Of a stretch of 64,000 nt of DNA, positions 5,283-24,803 are shown in pieces. The notes below the pieces were generated by a model that ran no database searches, was not told the origin of the DNA, and saw only the letters and a program-made list of their open reading frames with translations. This stretch comes from Natronolimnohabitans innermongolicus JCM 12255. GTDB lineage: Archaea > Halobacteriota > Halobacteria > Halobacteriales > Natrialbaceae. Made by a program: the position numbers and the translations under genes. Location of the stretch: contig NZ_AOHZ01000088.1 of assembly GCF_000337215.1 (NCBI RefSeq), forward strand, positions 607 through 64,606, written 5' to 3'. Positions within the stretch are counted from its first letter, which is position 1, and every line of letters starts with the position of its first letter.

Positions 5283-6041
5283 TTACAAATGCGACATATT
5301 GAGTTCGAACTCCTTTGCCGCACCGAGAAGATACTCCGGGAGTTCGTCTTCGAACTGTTCGCCCCGCATTCGATACGTCGGCCCGACGACGAGTAGCCCG
5401 CCGGCGATTCCGCCGTTGACGTCGTGAACCGGAACGGCGACCGCCCAGAGTCCTTCCGTGTGCTCGCCGTGGGCGTACGCGTACCCGCGTTCTCGAATCG
5501 TCTCGAGGTTTCGCTCGAGTTCCTCTCGGTCCGTGATCGTCTTCGGGGTTCGTTCCGGGAGTCCGTGTTCGTCGATGATCGCGGCGGTACGCTCTTCTGG
5601 AAGGTTTGCAAGAATCGCCTTTCCCGCGGCGGACTGATGGAGGTGGATTCGGCGCCCGATCCGAACGTCGTTGCCGACACCTTCGGAACCCCACTCGCTG
5701 TAGATATAGGTGCCGAGGCCGTGTTCTTCGACGAGAAAGCCGACGAATTCACCGGTTTCTTCCGCGATGTTCCGCACGAGCGATTTCACCTGCTTGTGGA
5801 TCGGATTACGGTGGCGAACGTGCCCGCCGAGATCCAAAAACCGGAAGCCGAGGGCGTACTCGTGGCCCTCCTTCGCCACGTAATCGTGTTTCTGCAGCGT
5901 TGCGAGGTGTCTGTGGACGGTGCTCTTCGAGACGTCGACGACGTCGGCGACGTCGGTGACCGTCGCGCCCCCTCGGTCGTACAGTACCTCGATAATCTCG
6001 AGGAGGGTTTCGTCCGATTTGATCGTGTCCGATTCGGCCAT
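5283..6041 (-). CDS. IclR-family transcriptional regulator
   Basis: A 252-residue regulator. It has an N-terminal winged helix-turn-helix (about residues 12-75; VTDVADVVDVSKSTVHRHL is the recognition region) and the IclR effector domain (about 80-250; HQSAAGKAILANLPEE and GGIAGGLLVVGPTYRM are characteristic). IclR proteins bind small aromatic or carboxylic acids and control nearby catabolic genes. It lies between the crotonase and the aryl-AMP ligase, all on the minus strand, so it is a good candidate for controlling the island. It is one of three IclR paralogues in this window. Confidence 0.93.
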   Translation of the reverse strand: MAESDTIKSDETLLEIIEVLYDRGGATVTDVADVVDVSKSTVHRHLATLQKHDYVAKEGHEYALGFRFLDLGGHVRHRNPIHKQVKSLVRNIAEETGEFVGFLVEEHGLGTYIYSEWGSEGVGNDVRIGRRIHLHQSAAGKAILANLPEERTAAIIDEHGLPERTPKTITDREELERNLETIRERGYAYAHGEHTEGLWAVAVPVHDVNGGIAGGLLVVGPTYRMRGEQFEDELPEYLLGAAKEFELNMSHL

Positions 6042-6488
6042 ACGCTACGTATCGGATCGGCTGTGATAATTGTTCCGTCTCATGGAACGGTGAACGGCGT
6101 CTATACTGATTCTCGCAGACACACGCACATCGTTGCATAGTGTGGAACGGACGTAGACAGGCACATATCATATATTCACGGACTATATATCTGGATATGT
6201 CTGGACGATTGATTTGGTGAATCGCTCCGCCATGTATATTCCAAAAGATTTTCCGAATCATTAACAGTCGTTCATGTCATGGTGTCTCCCGTCACGGTGT
6301 AGGGTAACGAGTTACAATATTCGGTGATGAACGGTAAAGCAACTTTCGACTGACTCGTTCTCTTCAGAGTTCACTGCGCCTGCTCGCCGTCGGACGCGTA
6401 AAAAAGCCTCCCGAAACCAACTCACACCGATTCTGAGCCGCGCTTCAGCCGTTGTCGTTACCTCCGAATTCGCTCGAGTCGGTTCCGT
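6042..6488. other. Gene-free stretch between ligase and IclR genes
   Basis: About 450 bases without a supported gene. The left part should carry the IclR promoter; the right part carries a T-run terminator for the ligase. No conserved small ORF was recognised. Confidence 0.45.
6400..6420 (-). terminator. Possible T-run terminator after the aryl-AMP ligase
   Basis: Read on the minus strand, the DNA downstream of the ligase stop gives a GGGAGGC stretch followed by six T residues (plus-strand A-run at 6400-6405). Archaeal termination commonly uses such oligo-T stretches. No strong stem was seen. Confidence 0.4.
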
Positions 6489-8183
6489 TCAGTACCCGTC
6501 CGGCAGTTTGCCTTCGCGCTTGAGTTCCTCCGTGATCCGTTCTTCGAGATTAACCTTCGCGATTTTCCCGACCTCCGTCCGCGGAAGTTCGTCGACGACG
6601 TCCAGTCGCTCCGGGCGCTTGAAGACGGCGATACCGCGGTCGCTGAGATACGATTGCAGGTCCTCGAGCGTCACCTCGTCTGCGTTCTCGCGCAACTCGA
6701 CGAATGCCGCGGGTCGTTCACCCAGCCGTTCGTCGGGCATGCCGATCACTGCGACGTTCTCGATGGCCTCGTGCTCGATGATCACGTCTTCTAAGTCCGG
6801 CGCGTAGATGTTCTCGCCGCCGCGGATGATCGTCTCCTTGATTCGGCCGTGGACGCGGTAGTTTCCGTCGTCGTCGACCGAGAGCACGTCCTCGGTGTAG
6901 AACCAGCCGTCGTCGTCGAAGTTCTCGGCGTTCTCCTCCGGCGTTCGGAAGTAGCCGGTGAAATAGCCCGGTCCGCGGACGGAGAGTTCGCCCTGTTCAC
7001 CCCGATCGACCGCCGTTTGGCGGTCGGTGCCGACGATCCTGACTTCGTCCGCGTCGGGAGCGATGGGCCGGCCGACGGTGTTCGCCTGCGTATCGACGTC
7101 GTCGTCGGGGCGCGTACAGATGAGCGGTCCTTCGGCCATCCCGAAGATGTTGCAAAAGCCGATATCGTACTCGTCGACCAGTTCGTAGACGACTCGCGGT
7201 GGTACTTTCTGTCCGCCGCTGATGAGGGTCTCGAGCGACGACAGATCGTACGATTCTCGATCGGGATGCTCGAGGATGTCGACGAGTTGCGTCGGAACCG
7301 GCAGCGAGTACGTCCCGCCGACGTCCTCGATGAGTTGCATCAATCGATCCGGCTTGAGCACCGGCTCGACCGCGACCGTCGCGCCCGCCCAGAACGCCGA
7401 GCCGACGACGCAACACAGCGAGGCGTTGTGACCGATCGGGACGCTCGGGAAGCCGATCCAGTCGTCTTCGACGCCGACCGCGTCGGCCATCTGCCCCCAC
7501 TGGAAGACGTAATCGTTGTGCGTTCGCGGGATTCCCTTCGGAAGCCCCGTCGTTCCGCCGGATAGCAACATGACGCCGGGATCGCTCGGGTTGACGTCGA
7601 CCGGCGACAGATCCTCGGGGTCGGACGCGGACCGAAGGGCGTCGAACGCCGTCCAGTGCTCGGGAAGTTGCTGGCCCGCTCCGGCGACGGCCACGAGCCG
7701 TTCTAGATCCTGATATTCGTCGGCGAAATCGTCGACGAACTCGACGAAATCGAACCCGAGATCGTACCGCGAGCCGGTCGTGAAGAACGCCTTCGCGTCG
7801 GTGAGCTCGATAACGTGGCGAGCCTCGCTCTCGCGGTGGCGGGGCAACAACATGACCGGAACGACGCCGAGCCGGGAACAGGCGAAAAACGCCTCGATGA
7901 ATTCCACCGTGTTGGGAAGCTGGAAGACGACCCTGTCGAGTCGCTCGAGGCTCGTTTCGCGCTGGAGGGACGCGGCGATTCGCTCGGAGTTTGCGGCGAG
8001 TTCCGCGTAACTCAACTCCCTGTCGGGACCGACGAGTGCGGTTCGGTCGGGGTGGCGTTCGGCTCGCTCATCGAGTACGGCGTGGAACGGTTGTTCCTTC
8101 CAGTATCCGTCTTCGATGTACGACTCCGCCCGATCGTCGGGAAACGGTACGTAGCCCTCAATCTCCGCTGACGGTAGTTGCAT
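6489..8183 (-). CDS. Aryl-AMP ligase, DhbE/EntE/salicylyl-AMP ligase type
   Basis: A 564-residue ANL-superfamily adenylating enzyme closest in pattern to 2,3-dihydroxybenzoate/salicylate-AMP ligases. The ATP-binding loop SGGTTGLPKG is at 208-217. GHN (251-253) matches the DhbE loop whose Asn contacts the ortho-hydroxy carboxylate. FGMAEG is at 347-352, the hinge is near 430-452 (GRIKETIIRGGE), and the catalytic Lys is Lys540 in TEVGKIAK. Product would be an aryl-AMP or aryl-CoA. It is divergent from a salicylyl-CoA hydroxylase-like gene, which supports salicylate or anthranilate as substrate (inference). A TATA-like CAATTAAATG lies about 28 bases upstream of the start. No siderophore genes are present, so a biosynthetic DhbE role is less likely. 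Confidence 0.9.
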   Translation of the reverse strand: MQLPSAEIEGYVPFPDDRAESYIEDGYWKEQPFHAVLDERAERHPDRTALVGPDRELSYAELAANSERIAASLQRETSLERLDRVVFQLPNTVEFIEAFFACSRLGVVPVMLLPRHRESEARHVIELTDAKAFFTTGSRYDLGFDFVEFVDDFADEYQDLERLVAVAGAGQQLPEHWTAFDALRSASDPEDLSPVDVNPSDPGVMLLSGGTTGLPKGIPRTHNDYVFQWGQMADAVGVEDDWIGFPSVPIGHNASLCCVVGSAFWAGATVAVEPVLKPDRLMQLIEDVGGTYSLPVPTQLVDILEHPDRESYDLSSLETLISGGQKVPPRVVYELVDEYDIGFCNIFGMAEGPLICTRPDDDVDTQANTVGRPIAPDADEVRIVGTDRQTAVDRGEQGELSVRGPGYFTGYFRTPEENAENFDDDGWFYTEDVLSVDDDGNYRVHGRIKETIIRGGENIYAPDLEDVIIEHEAIENVAVIGMPDERLGERPAAFVELRENADEVTLEDLQSYLSDRGIAVFKRPERLDVVDELPRTEVGKIAKVNLEERITEELKREGKLPDGY

Positions 8184-8399: not shown

Positions 8400-8468
8400 A
8401 TGTGCCCAACGGCGACCACGAGCCAGTGCGACCAGTGTGTACCACGTTCCGACGAGGTGACTGCCTGA
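8400..8468 (+). CDS. 22-residue Cys-containing leader ORF overlapping the hydroxylase start
   Basis: A short ORF, MCPTATTSQCDQCVPR then SDEVTA, starts just downstream of a TATA box. It ends in TGA sharing its A with the ATG of the next gene (TGATG). Three cysteines are present, two as C-x-x-C. A GAGGTGA Shine-Dalgarno-like string inside its last codons lies just before the downstream ATG. The arrangement suggests translational coupling or a regulatory leader peptide; a zinc- or thiol-binding micro-protein is also possible. I do not recognise a family. Coding status rests on position only. Confidence 0.4.
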   Translation: MCPTATTSQCDQCVPRSDEVTA

Positions 8469-10609
8469 TGGACGTCTCGGTAATCGGCGGCGGACCCGGT
8501 GGACTCTACGCGAGCATTCTCCTCCAGAAGGCGAATCCCGACTGGGAGATCACCGTCCACGAACGCAATCCGCAGGGCGTGACGTACGGCTGGGGGATCG
8601 TCCTGCCGAATCGGACGCTCTCTAACCTGCGGGCGGCTGACGCCCCCTCCTACGAAGCCATCGACGAGCGGTCGACCCAGTGGGAACCGTTCGACCTCTA
8701 CTACGGGGGAGAGCGCTACCGCTCGTCAGGGCACTCGTTCGCGAGCATGCTGCGGACGGATCTCCTGGAACTCCTCCAGGAACGCTGTCGCGACCTCGGC
8801 GTGGCGCTCGAGTTCGAAAGCGAGATCGACGACCCGCAGTCGCTCGCCGCGGCGTCGGATCTGGTGATCGGCGCCGACGGAATCCACAGCGAGACGCGGT
8901 CCGAATTCGCCGACGAGTTCGGCGCCGAGACCGTCGACGGCGAGGCCCGCTTTTCCTGGTTCGGAACGGAAGCCGACTTCGATGCGCTGAGCCACATCTT
9001 CGTCGAGAACGAGGACGGGATCTGGTGTGCGCACACGTATCCGGGCGAGGTGAGTACGTTCATCGTCGACTGCGACGCGGAGACGTGGGCGAACGCCGAC
9101 CTCGATCAGCGCTCCGAAGAGGAGTATCTGGCGTACCTCGAGGACGTCTTCGCGGAGCACCTCGACGGACACGAACTGCTGTCACAGGTCGACCGCTGGC
9201 AGACGTTCACGACGGTCAGAAACGAGCGCTGGTCGCACGACAACCTCGTTCTGATCGGCGACGCGGCGCACACGGCTCACTACTCGATCGGCTCCGGGAC
9301 GACGCTGGCGATGGAGGACGCGATCGCGCTCGCCGACGCGATCGGCGAGTCGGACGCCGACGTCGGAACGGCGCTCGAGAGCTACGAGCAACAGCGGCGA
9401 CCGATCGCGGAGTCCCTCCAGCGGTCGGGCGAACGGAGCCGGCTTCACTTCGAGGACATCCGCCGGTTCTACGGCTTCGACGGGATCCAGTTCGTGCTCC
9501 ACCACCTCACCCGTTCGGGCCGGCTCACCTACGACAGCATGTCCCGGCGCGATCCGGACCTCGTCGAGGAGTTCGAACGCTGGTTCGCCGCGAGCTCTCC
9601 CGGCGGCGCGGCGACTCCCGAACAGGCCGATCCCGTTTCGCCGGCAACCCAGCCGCTGGAACTGCGCGACCTCACGCTCTCGAACCGGGCCGTTCGGGTC
9701 GCCGGGCAGACGTTCGACGCTCGAGACGGCCGACCGACGGACGCACAGCTGGCCGCCGTTCGCGAACGGAGCAACGACGGTGCCGGATTGACGATGACCG
9801 AACCGCTCGCCGTGTCCGAAGACGGCCGGATCACGCCCGGGAGTCCCGGACTGTACAGCGACGATCACGTCAGCGCCTGGCAGGAGACGATCGCGTCGGC
9901 GGACACCCCTGTTGGATCGACGCTCGTCCACACCGGGACGAACGGCGCCCGCCAGACGCAGCCGTTCGGCCTCGAGGGACCGATTCCCCGAAACGAGTCG
10001 TGGGCGTCTCGAGTGACCGACCAGTACTCGAACCCGCCGCGTACGTACGCGCCGGATCGGTTGCAAGGCGAGGATCTCGAGCGAATCGAGCGGACGTTCG
10101 CCGACGCCGCGCGGCGAGCGGACGACGCTGGCTTCGACTACCTCCAACTGCAACTCGGCAACGGCTACCTGCTCGGCTCGTTCCTCTCGCCGCTCACCAA
10201 CGACCGAACCGACGCGTACGGCGGCGACCTCGAGAGTCGAGTGCAGTTCCCGCTCGAGGTCGTCGACGCGGTTCGCGACGCCTGGCCGGACTCGAAGCCG
10301 CTGGGTGCGGTCGTCCAGGCGACCGACTGGGCCGCGGACGGCCTCACGCTCGAGGATTCGTTCGCCGTCGGTCGCGCACTCTCCGACCGCGGCGTCGACG
10401 TTCTCGCGCCGGTTGCCGGCGGCGTCTCGGACGACCAGCACCGCGGCGACGTCCACGGGCTGGCCAACTTCAGCGACGAACTTCGGAACGAAGTCGGGCT
10501 TCCTACGATGGCGACGGTTCAAGCGACGACGTCGGACGAGGTCAATACGCTCGTCGGAACCAGCCGCGCCGATCTCTGTACGTACTACGGATCGGTCAAC
10601 GAGCTATAG
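8468..10609 (+). CDS. Salicylyl-CoA 5-hydroxylase/2-aminobenzoyl-CoA monooxygenase-like protein fused to an OYE-type domain
   Basis: A 713-residue fusion. Residues 1-375 are an FAD monooxygenase: GGGPGG at 7-12, the DG motif GADG at 135-138 and the GD motif GDAAHTAHYSIGSG at 264-277. This resembles salicylyl-CoA 5-hydroxylase (SdgC) and the N-half of bacterial 2-aminobenzoyl-CoA monooxygenase/reductase. Residues about 395-713 are an Old Yellow Enzyme-like barrel (GYLLGSFLSPLTNDRTDAYG at 566-585). The OYE half is odd: the usual catalytic H-x-x-H/N pair reads Gln562 and Asn565, and the protein stops soon after RADLC, short of the family's normal end. The ATG at 8468 is chosen for GAGGTGA just upstream and the Rossmann start; an in-frame GTG exists at 8402. 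Expected role: ring hydroxylation of an aryl-CoA. Confidence 0.9.
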   Translation: MDVSVIGGGPGGLYASILLQKANPDWEITVHERNPQGVTYGWGIVLPNRTLSNLRAADAPSYEAIDERSTQWEPFDLYYGGERYRSSGHSFASMLRTDLLELLQERCRDLGVALEFESEIDDPQSLAAASDLVIGADGIHSETRSEFADEFGAETVDGEARFSWFGTEADFDALSHIFVENEDGIWCAHTYPGEVSTFIVDCDAETWANADLDQRSEEEYLAYLEDVFAEHLDGHELLSQVDRWQTFTTVRNERWSHDNLVLIGDAAHTAHYSIGSGTTLAMEDAIALADAIGESDADVGTALESYEQQRRPIAESLQRSGERSRLHFEDIRRFYGFDGIQFVLHHLTRSGRLTYDSMSRRDPDLVEEFERWFAASSPGGAATPEQADPVSPATQPLELRDLTLSNRAVRVAGQTFDARDGRPTDAQLAAVRERSNDGAGLTMTEPLAVSEDGRITPGSPGLYSDDHVSAWQETIASADTPVGSTLVHTGTNGARQTQPFGLEGPIPRNESWASRVTDQYSNPPRTYAPDRLQGEDLERIERTFADAARRADDAGFDYLQLQLGNGYLLGSFLSPLTNDRTDAYGGDLESRVQFPLEVVDAVRDAWPDSKPLGAVVQATDWAADGLTLEDSFAVGRALSDRGVDVLAPVAGGVSDDQHRGDVHGLANFSDELRNEVGLPTMATVQATTSDEVNTLVGTSRADLCTYYGSVNEL

Positions 10610-10699: not shown

Positions 10700-11110
10700 A
10701 TGCATCGTATTGTCCAGGCGATCGACGACGAAGTCGATCGGTCACTCGATCAGGCACAGACGATCATCGACCTCGCGGCGGATTCGGAGTCGGTTACCGT
10801 CGTCATCACGCACGGCTTCGAGTTCAAAGGACCGGACGACGAACTCACCGATCTCGAGTCGGTTCGACGGGTGACGGACCGCTTCGACGAACACGGTATC
10901 GCGTACGAACTGCGCGGCGAACAGGCGGAACCGGCAGCGTTCGTCCTCGAGACCGCTGACGAGATCGACGCCGACCTGATCTGCGTCGGCGGTCGGACGC
11001 GAAGCCCCGTCGGAAAGGTGCTCTTCGGAAGCGTCTCCCAGCAGATCATCCTCGAAGCCGATCTGCCAGTCCTCATCGCCGAGCGATCGACGGCCGGCGT
11101 GGACGAGTAG
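10700..11110 (+). CDS. Universal stress protein (UspA family)
   Basis: A 136-residue single-domain Usp starting MHRIVQAIDDEVDRS. The ATP-binding-type signature G-x-x-G-x(9)-GS appears near the C-terminus as GGRTRSPVGKVLFGSVSQQI, ending in LPVLIAER. It probably acts as a small cytoplasmic nucleotide-binding stress protein; in haloarchaea such genes often sit beside transporters. It follows the hydroxylase by about 90 bases and precedes the symporter pair on the same strand. The start is chosen at the family's normal N-terminus rather than the in-frame start 27 bases upstream. Confidence 0.88.
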   Translation: MHRIVQAIDDEVDRSLDQAQTIIDLAADSESVTVVITHGFEFKGPDDELTDLESVRRVTDRFDEHGIAYELRGEQAEPAAFVLETADEIDADLICVGGRTRSPVGKVLFGSVSQQIILEADLPVLIAERSTAGVDE

Positions 11111-11227: not shown

Positions 11228-11485
11228 ATGCTCAAGGGCAGCTTTTGGTATCCAAACAGCTGGAAGCACGCGGCGCTGTTCGCGGCGGTGTGTGCGATGG
11301 TCGTGTTACACCAGAGCGAACTGGTCGGGCTCTACGATTCGACGACGATACTCTTCGGGTGGCTCCCGGCACAGATCGCCTACGACATGGCGTTCAACGT
11401 AGTCGGGTTCGGTATCCTGATCGTGATGTACTACCTCGCTCCGACGGCGCCGGAACGATACGAATCCGAGGGTGAGTCACAATGA
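11228..11485 (+). CDS. DUF3311-type small membrane partner of an SSS symporter
   Basis: An 85-residue protein with two hydrophobic segments (about residues 15-33 and 43-70) and an acidic tail. It is immediately followed by, and overlaps by ATGA, a sodium:solute symporter. DUF3311 proteins of this size and layout are regular neighbours of SSS-family permeases and are presumed accessory subunits. Tight overlap implies translational coupling. Function beyond that pairing is unknown. Confidence 0.82.
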   Translation: MLKGSFWYPNSWKHAALFAAVCAMVVLHQSELVGLYDSTTILFGWLPAQIAYDMAFNVVGFGILIVMYYLAPTAPERYESEGESQ

Positions 11486-12963
11486 TCTCGACAACGAACG
11501 CGCTCATCCTCGGAATCACGGCCGTCTACCTGTTGCTCGTCGTCGCCGTCGGCGCCGCGGCGTCCCGAATCACGGGCGATTCCAGAGAGGACTTCCTCAT
11601 GGCGAGCCGGTCGTTCGGGACGGTCGTCCTCCTCTTCGCCCTGTTCGCGACGAACATGACGTCCGTCGTCATGATCGGCGCCCCGGGCCTCGCGTACTCG
11701 ACCGGGGTCAGCGCGTACGGCTTCTTCGTGTCGCTGTTCGCGTTCCTCTTCCCGGTCTTCCTGATGACGTTCGGATACCGGATCTGGATCGTCGGCAAGG
11801 AGTTCGGCCACATTACCCCGGGGCAGATCTTCAATCACCGGTGGGAGTCTGACAACCTCGGGCTTCTCGTGATGGCTATCTTCACCATCTGGACGATTCC
11901 GTACATCCTCGTCGGCGTACAGGGTGGCGGAATCGTGTTCGAATCCCTCACCGACGGGTTGATTCCCTACTGGCTCGGCGCGTTGATCACGATCATCGTC
12001 GTCGGGATGTACGTCTACCCCGGCGGTATGCGCGGGACCGGATGGACGAACACCTTCCAGGGAATGGTGTTCATGGCCGTCCTGTTCGCGTTCTTCCTCT
12101 ACGTCCCGTTCCGAATCGGCGGGTTCGGCGCGGCGACCGACGCCGTCGCACAGATCGATGGCGGCGTCTTCCTCAATCGCGAAGGGCTGCCGCCGTACGA
12201 GACGCGGATGTACTTCTCACAGGGGATCATCGTTGCCCTGGGGGCGTTCATGTTCCCGCACCTGATCCTCCGGTACATGACGGCTCGATCGTTCACGACG
12301 CTCAAGCAGACGTCGGTCGTCTACCCAGTCGCCGTCCTGCTGGTCTGGGTCCCCACCGTGTTACTCGGCTTCTGGGGCATCGCACAGATCCCGAACCTCG
12401 AGAACCCGGACTTCATCCTCCCGGAACTCGTCTTCGAATTCTTCCCGACCTGGGCGATCGGCCTCGCCCTCGCGGGTATCCTGGCAGCGATGATGTCGAG
12501 TATCGACGGTCAGGTCCTCACGCTGAGTACGTTCTTCGGCGAAGACGTGCTCCGGAAGTTCTGGGACGACGTTACCGACGCGAAAGTCGTCTGGTACACT
12601 CGAATCTTCCTCATCGTTATCTTCGTCCTCGCGTACATCGGCGCGCTTCTCACCTCTGATACCGTCGTCGACACGGCGACGTTCGCGTTCGCCGGGTACG
12701 GACTGTTGTTCGTCCCGATGGCCGCGGCCTTCTACTGGCGGAGTTCGACGAAAGCCAGCATCTACGCTGGCGTGATATACGGTTTCGTCGGAATCTGGGC
12801 GTTCGAATACGGTCCCCTGCCGCCGGAAGTCGCCGGGTTCCATCCGTTCGTTCCGATACTGGTCACACAGATTCTACTGATGGCCGTCGTCGCACTGGTG
12901 ACCCAGCCACCGTCGGAAGACCGGATCGACGAGTACGAGGAGTGCTTCGAGGACGTCTGGTAA
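11482..12963 (+). CDS. Sodium:solute symporter (SSS family)
   Basis: A 493-residue integral membrane protein with about 13 predicted helices. It starts MISTTNALILGITAVYLLLV and has SSS features such as GGMRGTGWTNTFQG in the central loop and LALAGILAAMMSSIDGQVLT near the middle of the second half. It should import an organic anion with sodium at the cytoplasmic membrane. Coupled upstream to the DUF3311 gene by a 4-base overlap. Its place after the aryl-CoA hydroxylase makes an aromatic or related carboxylate a plausible substrate, but the sequence does not show this. Solute could equally be a short-chain carboxylate. Confidence 0.92.
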   Translation: MISTTNALILGITAVYLLLVVAVGAAASRITGDSREDFLMASRSFGTVVLLFALFATNMTSVVMIGAPGLAYSTGVSAYGFFVSLFAFLFPVFLMTFGYRIWIVGKEFGHITPGQIFNHRWESDNLGLLVMAIFTIWTIPYILVGVQGGGIVFESLTDGLIPYWLGALITIIVVGMYVYPGGMRGTGWTNTFQGMVFMAVLFAFFLYVPFRIGGFGAATDAVAQIDGGVFLNREGLPPYETRMYFSQGIIVALGAFMFPHLILRYMTARSFTTLKQTSVVYPVAVLLVWVPTVLLGFWGIAQIPNLENPDFILPELVFEFFPTWAIGLALAGILAAMMSSIDGQVLTLSTFFGEDVLRKFWDDVTDAKVVWYTRIFLIVIFVLAYIGALLTSDTVVDTATFAFAGYGLLFVPMAAAFYWRSSTKASIYAGVIYGFVGIWAFEYGPLPPEVAGFHPFVPILVTQILLMAVVALVTQPPSEDRIDEYEECFEDVW

Positions 12964-15104: not shown

Positions 15105-15239
15105 ATGGAGATCAATGATTTCCTCAACGGAGACCAGCTTACAGGCCGACAGGCTGCGACGATTTTTTTCCTCTGGCTAGCCATCGTTCTGGCAGCGGGT
15201 ATCATCCTCCTGCTATTTACGAGCGCCACGATCTCGTAA
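15105..15239 (+). CDS. 44-residue single-span membrane protein
   Basis: ATG-to-TAA ORF of 45 codons. It starts MEINDFLNGDQLTGRQ, followed by one strongly hydrophobic segment (about residues 19-38, FFLWLAIVLAAGIILLLF) and a four-residue tail. An AT-rich TATA-like string about 30 bases upstream supports a leaderless transcript. The charged N-terminus and clean hydrophobic span are what a real small membrane protein would show. It is isolated in gene-poor DNA next to thiM/thiE. No family is recognised. Confidence 0.55.
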   Translation: MEINDFLNGDQLTGRQAATIFFLWLAIVLAAGIILLLFTSATIS

Positions 15240-16023
15240 TGGGCTCGAGTTTGGTCCTCCCGGCCTCTCGAGCAGTGTGGCGGTAGAGCGATTGGACTGT
15301 CGGAACAGGGAGACAGTTTTGAGGGGTAGACAGACCGTGGCGCCGCCGAAGACTCCGCTTCACTGCTCGGTTTCATGTGATCAGCCGTTCGATTCGACTG
15401 GTCCAGTTGCTTGGTGCTTACTCGGTTACGAACGCACTCCGTGCGCGATCCAACACGGATGGTATCGTCTCAGTAACAATAGCAGACATCTGCCAGTCGC
15501 TTCGCTGCCTTCGCTGGAGTTGACGAACCATCGGGTAGTGCGCCAACCTATATATTGCACATAAGTAGCAATAGTCTATCGAGAATTCGGTTCTGCTATT
15601 ATAACATTTTGGTGCGGAGAACTGTTTGGGCGGTAATCTCCTAATAGCATCTAACCGAATATATTCGGCTATGTATCGAAATCGACTGTGGACTGTACTC
15701 AACTCACCGCGATACTCGCTACCGCATTGGCCGAGAGACAGCTAATTACACGTTCTATCCAATATACTATCAATAAGTGTATTTACTAGCTGCTAATACA
15801 GATAGCCGATTATATTGCACTATCTACGCACTATCGTGGCGCCACAGTTCCGTATCAATCAACGAAGAAACAATAAAATGGGCCTAGCGAATTGGACAAA
15901 CATCGTGACAATTGAATCGAGTTATACACTGTTCGCACAGCCGTCTGTGATCAGGTATGCCGTAATTCAGGGGCCACTCCCGACTCGCGTCAGATTGATG
16001 CGACGAGAGACGAAGCCGACCGC
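15240..16023. other. AT-rich gene-poor stretch containing one degenerate 84-bp-family repeat
   Basis: Nearly 800 bases with no convincing gene. A 94-codon minus-strand ORF at 15418-15702 has no recognised family. About 15900-15982 matches the 84-bp inverted-repeat element seen elsewhere (see separate entry). Confidence 0.45.
15900..15982. repeat. Degenerate copy (D) of the 84-bp inverted-repeat element
   Basis: Shares the core TGAATCGAGTTATACACTG, GCACAGCC, GATCAGG and TTCAG in the same order and spacing as the copy at 57328-57411. The terminal inverted repeats are eroded. Confidence 0.55.
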
Positions 16024-23955: not shown

Positions 23956-24122
23956 TCCCTGTCAAAATGGTCGCCGCGCAAATCCGATCCGACAATCGAC
24001 TTTTTGGACCGAATCCGATCGAACACCTTCATCGGAAAATCCGGGCGTGTTGAGCAGTTGGGAGCTACCCTCGAGTGGGGCGCCACGGAATTGATAAGCT
24101 ATCGTATAATACGTACCACCAC

Positions 24123-24803
24123 ATGTGGCCAGAGGCCATCGAAACTGCACTGGAGCGCTACGAGAACCGATACGGAACTCTCCGGGAAGCGTGGAAGGAC
24201 GCGGGATACTGGCCGGAAACCACGTTCCCCGAACGAGCCTTCGAAACGATTGCGGAGAACCCTGAAAAGCGAGTGATCGGCCCCCGCCGAACGGAGACGT
24301 TCGAGGACCTCGGCACAGGCGAGATTCACGTGTCCGGGCCGAACGCGATGGTCGGCTACCTCGACGGGAACCACGACGATGACGCGTTCGACGGAACGTG
24401 GTTCGCGACCGGTGACATCGGCCGGCTGGACGGCGACGGCTACCTCACGATCACGGGCCGAAAGAAGGACGTTATCGTGAGAGGTGGCGAGAATATCCCC
24501 GTCAAAGAGGTCGAAGACGTCCTTTACGAACACCCATCGGTCGACGATATCGCGATCGTCGCGATGCCGGACGAGGAGATGCAGGAAAAGGGTTGCGCGT
24601 ACGTACGGGTCGATAACGGCCGATCGTTCTCCTTCGGGGAGATGATCAACCACCTCGACGAGTACGAGATGGCGAAACAGAAGTACCCGGAACGACTCGA
24701 GATCGTCGACGAGTTCCCGCGGACTGGAAGCGGCAAGATACAGAAGGCCGAACTCCGGGAACGCATCGCCGAGACGCTAGGAATGAAGCCGGTGCGGCGG
24801 TAG
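24123..24803 (+). pseudogene. Acyl-CoA synthetase with large in-frame internal deletion
   Basis: An open 226-codon frame. It begins like an AMP-dependent synthetase N-terminus (residues 1-60, including PERAFETIAENPEKRV) and jumps directly at about residues 63-65 to the C-terminal region (GTGEIHVSGPNAMVGYLDG). From there it is complete: TGDIGRLDGDGY, GRKKDVIVRGGENI hinge, and catalytic Lys in RTGSGKIQKAEL. The ATP-binding loop and most of the N-terminal domain, about 300 residues, are missing, so it cannot be a normal ligase. It may be a dead remnant or produce a free C-terminal domain. A promoter-like CGTATAATAC lies upstream. Confidence 0.8.

Follow-up and report, generated by a model that had tools for sequence, protein, structure and literature searches.

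A haloarchaeal aryl-CoA monooxygenase fusion with a degenerate Old Yellow Enzyme half is probably a hydroxylase only

The closest described systems are the SdgC-type salicylyl-CoA 5-hydroxylase (NF006101 / PRK08255) and the 2-aminobenzoyl-CoA monooxygenase/reductase (ACMR) of Azoarcus evansii and relatives, both single polypeptides that combine a FAD monooxygenase with an Old Yellow Enzyme (OYE) barrel. Streptomyces sp. WA46 degrades salicylate via salicylyl-CoA, gentisyl-CoA and gentisate (PMC4600096). CehH-type salicylyl-CoA hydroxylases (e.g. L085:4983-6125) have a homologous FAD half and belong to the gentisate pathway, but they comprise 380 residues with no barrel and by annotation work without an OYE half; such single-domain relatives occur in complete gentisate operons, suggesting that a FAD half can be enough by itself. 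Here we analysed a stretch of 64,000 nucleotides (the window) from Natronolimnohabitans innermongolicus JCM 12255 (NZ_AOHZ01000088.1, positions 607 to 64,606), which encodes a two-domain enzyme of this kind whose barrel has lost its flavin site. Among the papers returned by our literature search, mostly as titles and abstracts, none dealt with an ACMR/SdgC homologue from haloarchaea, with the degeneracy of its barrel or with a link to F420.

The open reading frame at 8468-10609 on the plus strand encodes 713 residues with zero internal stops. The first-pass annotation had read it as a fusion of a FAD monooxygenase of the SdgC/ACMR type with an OYE barrel, and profile searches confirmed this: Pfam assigned FAD_binding_3 to residues 2-317 and Oxidored_FMN to residues 395-631, the latter match stopping at position 240 of the 342 in the profile, and the top NCBIfam model was NF006101 (bifunctional salicylyl-CoA 5-hydroxylase/oxidoreductase), with 675 bits against a cut-off of 1078. 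The FAD half (residues 1-372; 8468-9583, plus strand) has intact GGGPGG, DG and GD fingerprints, and Gly7-Gly9, Asp137-Gly138 and Gly264-Asp265 were unchanged across 40 aligned sequences. When the predicted structure was searched with Foldseek, the second half matched OYEs and the first half matched VioD with FAD as its nearest solved fold (8gqr, 3c4a; ~30% identity, TM-score 0.87 normalised by VioD). VioD has no barrel, and it acts on an intermediate of an indole pathway rather than on a CoA thioester.

The OYE half (residues 394-713; 9647-10606, plus strand) lacks both the FMN site and the terminal helix. Its catalytic His pair, His172/His175 in the OYE of Thermus scotoductus (3hf3), aligns to the two ends of Gln562-Leu-Gly-Asn565 (10151-10162, plus strand), as first annotated, and no His preserved elsewhere in the barrel was seen in the alignment. 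Because Asn is ordinary at the second His position of classical OYEs such as yeast OYE1, Asn565 alone is weak evidence of degeneracy and was set aside. The stronger losses lie in the FMN site, where Gln100, Lys107, Arg225 and Gly295 of 3hf3 correspond to Thr485, Asn492, Val615 and Val684, with Ser22 and Tyr27 further substituted by Val411 and Phe416; Tyr567 is the sole surviving catalytic residue. The chain does end just past RADLC, its C-terminus reading RADLCTYYGSVNEL before the stop, and this early end (ADLCTYYGSVNEL plus the stop codon; 10571-10609, plus strand) is found where OYEs have the Gly-Arg phosphate loop and their last helix. The chain thus stops before the Gly-Arg pair, which in OYEs such as YqjM holds the FMN phosphate, and the whole segment is absent. 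The reductase half is degenerate as proposed, but the extent had been understated, since four further flavin-site residues (Gln, Lys, Arg and Gly) are missing along with the C-terminal segment. No resemblance to the missing C-terminus was found in any of the three forward frames downstream of the stop, so a recent frameshift does not explain the early end; together with the shared end point of all orthologues, this excludes both a frameshift and an assembly error near the 3' end.

Despite these losses, the barrel is predicted to fold. An AlphaFold model of the whole protein, built on a 24-sequence alignment, reached a mean pLDDT of 86.8 and a pTM of 0.85, with confidence below 50 solely near residues 381-385, 501-529 and 653-660, and it contained eight barrel strands with the terminal helix absent. 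The modelled barrel shares the eight-stranded fold of OYEs such as Thermus scotoductus CrS (3hf3) and YqjM (1z41), with TM-scores of 0.76-0.80 normalised by the OYE for several of them, but the last helix is missing and hardly any FMN contact remains.

Full-length orthologues with 46-94% identity were found in 20 of 392 Halobacteria genomes, a conservation of the two-domain protein far beyond chance. The first-pass annotation had treated the loss as that of one archaeal enzyme; the loss of the flavin site held up, but it proved to be a property of the whole haloarchaeal clade. None of the 20 carriers keeps Arg225, Gly295 or the Gly-Arg pair, and all end about 5-16 residues past the last barrel strand, whereas two-domain bacterial relatives extend some 40-95 residues beyond that end point. 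Gln100, Arg225, Gly295 and the final Arg are kept in all 18 aligned bacterial two-domain relatives, and both His in 15 of them. The remaining three (L040, L088, L045) have Gln at the first His position with the FMN site otherwise largely intact; those of Cupriavidus and Caballeronia lie in gentisate-type loci, and that of Novosphingobium in an unannotated record. A gentisate context alone therefore does not erase the FMN site, since the Cupriavidus and Caballeronia fusions keep most of it, the first His excepted. Two further intact fusions, from Arthrobacter pAL1 and Rhodococcus BG43 (L039, L041), lie beside RidA, cupin and FAA-hydrolase genes, a mixture of anthranilate-type and gentisate-type contexts.

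In a tree of the FAD halves, the haloarchaeal proteins formed one group (support 100/99) beside the bacterial two-domain proteins, and the single-domain CehH-type enzymes fell further out, outside the two-domain group. With the root of the tree not inferred, the simplest history would be one acquisition of a bacterial two-domain enzyme followed by loss of the flavin site. Within the haloarchaea, trees of both halves separated a branch S, comprising the window genome and eight others (support 100/100 in each), from a branch A of ten genomes and four further plasmid records. A bifunctional fusion seems to have lost one activity clade-wide and yet kept the domain, and the label 'bifunctional hydroxylase/oxidoreductase' would mislead for haloarchaeal members.

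Selection on the two halves bears on what the retained barrel does. In branch S pairs, dN/dS ranged from 0.11 to 0.28 in the OYE half and from 0.03 to 0.14 in the FAD half, and median protein distances of the OYE half relative to the FAD half were 2.0-fold in branch S, 1.6-fold in branch A and 0.83-fold in bacteria. The pattern is one of relaxed yet ongoing, weakly purifying constraint, as expected for a structural remnant, and it is still compatible with a new function. The spread of orthologues and dN/dS well below 1 rule out a chance fusion or a private pseudogene. The faster evolution of the OYE half in branch S than in any other group, and the erased motif in four of its members (L017-L020), are what would be expected if the half were a decaying pseudodomain with no role and on its way to being lost; we regard this as improbable in view of a frame intact over about 320 codons in all orthologues, the low dN/dS and the confident predicted fold of most of the barrel. 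We consider it quite improbable that the half is still catalytic in an altered way, through unusual flavin binding or a new reaction of Tyr567 with Gln562. Its dN/dS far below 1, its retained Tyr567 in a barrel predicted to fold, and the Gln found at the same position in bacterial gentisate-type fusions with an otherwise kept site would fit such an activity, but neither the Gly-Arg loop nor any of Gln100, Lys107, Arg225 and Gly295 is left, and L017-L020 lack the Tyr and the entire motif, which makes a conserved new active site less likely. Of the fates first suggested for the half (structural, re-purposed or lost), a structural one fits best, because the reading frame has been maintained, the barrel should fold according to the model, and purifying selection acts on it. 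Re-purposing is less favoured. We propose that the half is retained because the fold or the dimer of the fusion depends on it.

The genes around the enzyme suggest a substrate. A divergent AMP-forming aryl-CoA ligase (6489-8183, minus strand; Pfam AMP-binding) has orthologues in all nine branch S genomes and in none of the 11 other carriers. An IclR-type regulator of the PcaR/PcaU-like kind (5283-6041, minus strand; Pfam and NCBIfam) is 54% identical to one at the Natrinema salinisoli locus, and an IclR gene is present in 9/9 branch S loci, as is a sodium:solute symporter (11482-12963, plus strand; Pfam), which probably takes up the aromatic acid. The universal stress protein gene just downstream of the enzyme gene (10700-11110, plus strand; Pfam) occurs otherwise only at the loci of the two Halostagnicola-like relatives. 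A 242-residue open reading frame elsewhere in the window (24075-24803) is matched by the C-terminal domain, but by no other part, of AMP-forming ligases and is possibly a truncated ligase gene.

Gentisate dioxygenase is encoded in all nine branch S genomes, in none of the ten of branch A and in 62 of 392 genomes overall (P 4e-8, ignoring relatedness). With that overall count, the gene is not near-universal in haloarchaea. In the window genome it adjoins an FAA hydrolase gene, both on another contig than the enzyme gene. Matches to hotdog thioesterases, present in the window genome too, were weak (E about 1e-5 to 1e-6), and in four branch S genomes they lie at most 2 kb from the dioxygenase gene. 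The locus thus shares with the SdgC type an adjoining aryl-CoA ligase and a gentisate dioxygenase in the genome, here on another contig, and differs in the sub-threshold model score and in the missing FMN site and C-terminal segment. Compared with ACMR, the two-domain architecture is shared, but the reductase half appears to lack a flavin site, and no beta-oxidation-type gene set like that of anthranilate loci stands beside the gene; around it, the RidA, acyl-CoA dehydrogenase and SDR set was not found at useful identity.

Taken together, domain anatomy, flavin-site loss and gene context make it quite probable that the window gene encodes a flavin hydroxylase of an aryl-CoA thioester, most likely forming gentisyl-CoA from salicylyl-CoA, and that its OYE half is a non-catalytic scaffold. 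In the proposed pathway, an aromatic acid, probably imported by the symporter, would be activated by the divergent ligase, and the FAD half, with NAD(P)H and O2, would hydroxylate the thioester. A thioesterase would then release gentisate for degradation by gentisate dioxygenase and an FAA-hydrolase-family enzyme, so that genes scattered over different contigs would serve one pathway. The OYE half would neither hold FMN in the usual way nor reduce the ring. Hydroxylation and reduction are separable, and a branch S enzyme that feeds gentisate needs hydroxylation only; most likely, the window enzyme only hydroxylates, without ring reduction. Counting against this reading are the largely kept FMN site of the Cupriavidus and Caballeronia fusions, the location of the gentisate genes on a different contig, the low-scoring thioesterase matches, and a dioxygenase that fits 5-aminosalicylate dioxygenase equally well.

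The same hydroxylase-only mechanism could act on another substrate, converting 4-hydroxybenzoyl-CoA to gentisyl-CoA with side-chain migration, or anthraniloyl-CoA to 5-hydroxyanthraniloyl-CoA before ring cleavage. A study cited in PMC4005966 documents for Haloarcula sp. D1 that 4-hydroxybenzoate breakdown leads to gentisate through an NIH shift, and the gentisate dioxygenase and 5-aminosalicylate dioxygenase models score the ring-cleaving enzyme of the window genome about equally well. However, the best family model for the monooxygenase is a salicylyl-CoA 5-hydroxylase, and the anthranilate-type companions RidA and kynureninase were not found in the nine branch S loci, which makes another substrate rather unlikely and favours salicylyl-CoA over both alternatives as judged from sequence. 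It is very improbable that the window enzyme serves a reductive, ACMR-like pathway in which another protein reduces the ring in trans. The luciferase-like gene beside the monooxygenase gene in the sister clade, and a stand-alone OYE-family protein of about 450 residues encoded in the window genome, would suit such a pathway; but no orthologue of the luciferase-like gene was found in the window genome or any other branch S genome at E<=1e-60, the stand-alone OYE is unlinked to the locus, and all of branch S has gentisate dioxygenase.

Branch A differs from branch S in its neighbours. A luciferase-like (LLM) oxidoreductase gene lies directly upstream of the monooxygenase gene in all ten branch A genomes and in the four plasmid records (loci including L034-L038 and L046), and in three annotated loci the two genes overlap by 4 bp. 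Among the 392 genomes, orthologues at E<=1e-60 were found in exactly those ten (hypergeometric P 9e-15, ignoring relatedness). The LLM gene is not a general companion of the enzyme family, as no match was found in the 20 bacterial loci examined. Many branch A loci also hold RidA, acyl-CoA dehydrogenase, MaoC, SDR, enoyl-CoA hydratase or kynureninase genes, resembling the bacterial anthranilate-type loci around intact fusions. These loci therefore look like reductive ACMR loci, yet their OYE halves have no flavin site. The remaining carrier, a genome that is 82% complete (L031 / G390:C17:212128-214248), showed neither the luciferase-like gene nor gentisate dioxygenase.

Given this arrangement, the LLM protein is the best candidate for an in-trans substitute for the lost ring reductase of branch A, and it could alternatively be a monooxygenase for another step. 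Its best family model was F420_Rv2161c (TIGR03619), at 127-131 bits against a cut-off of 166.9, and its predicted fold, of good quality in only one of the five models (pLDDT 78.8), matched F420-dependent and FMN-dependent enzymes about equally; F420 dependence is a lead suggested by these matches. A wider reading, which we hold tentatively and at somewhat less than even confidence, is that haloarchaea switched off the fused OYE reductase, the anthranilate branch handing ring reduction to the upstream luciferase-like enzyme, probably with F420H2, and using the dead barrel as a scaffold or docking surface, and the gentisate branch dropping ring reduction. The outcomes in the sister branches would then differ, the step being unneeded in the gentisate branch and possibly done by a neighbouring gene of another family in the anthranilate branch, and the aerobic degradation of aromatic-CoA compounds might include an F420-linked step. 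Culturable archaea thus offer a direct way to test what the reductase half does in ACMR and SdgC enzymes.

Two minor observations concern branch A. In Natronosalvus halobius (L037), genes for a CofH-like radical SAM protein and an F420-NADP reductase (6248-7612 and 15177-15845) lie on the same stretch as the LLM gene, a hint of F420 chemistry. In part of the branch (L021, L022, L025, L030 and L038), a shared WYPxxVDVNSL-like C-terminal tail replaces the Gly-Arg loop and may have a new role, for example in docking.
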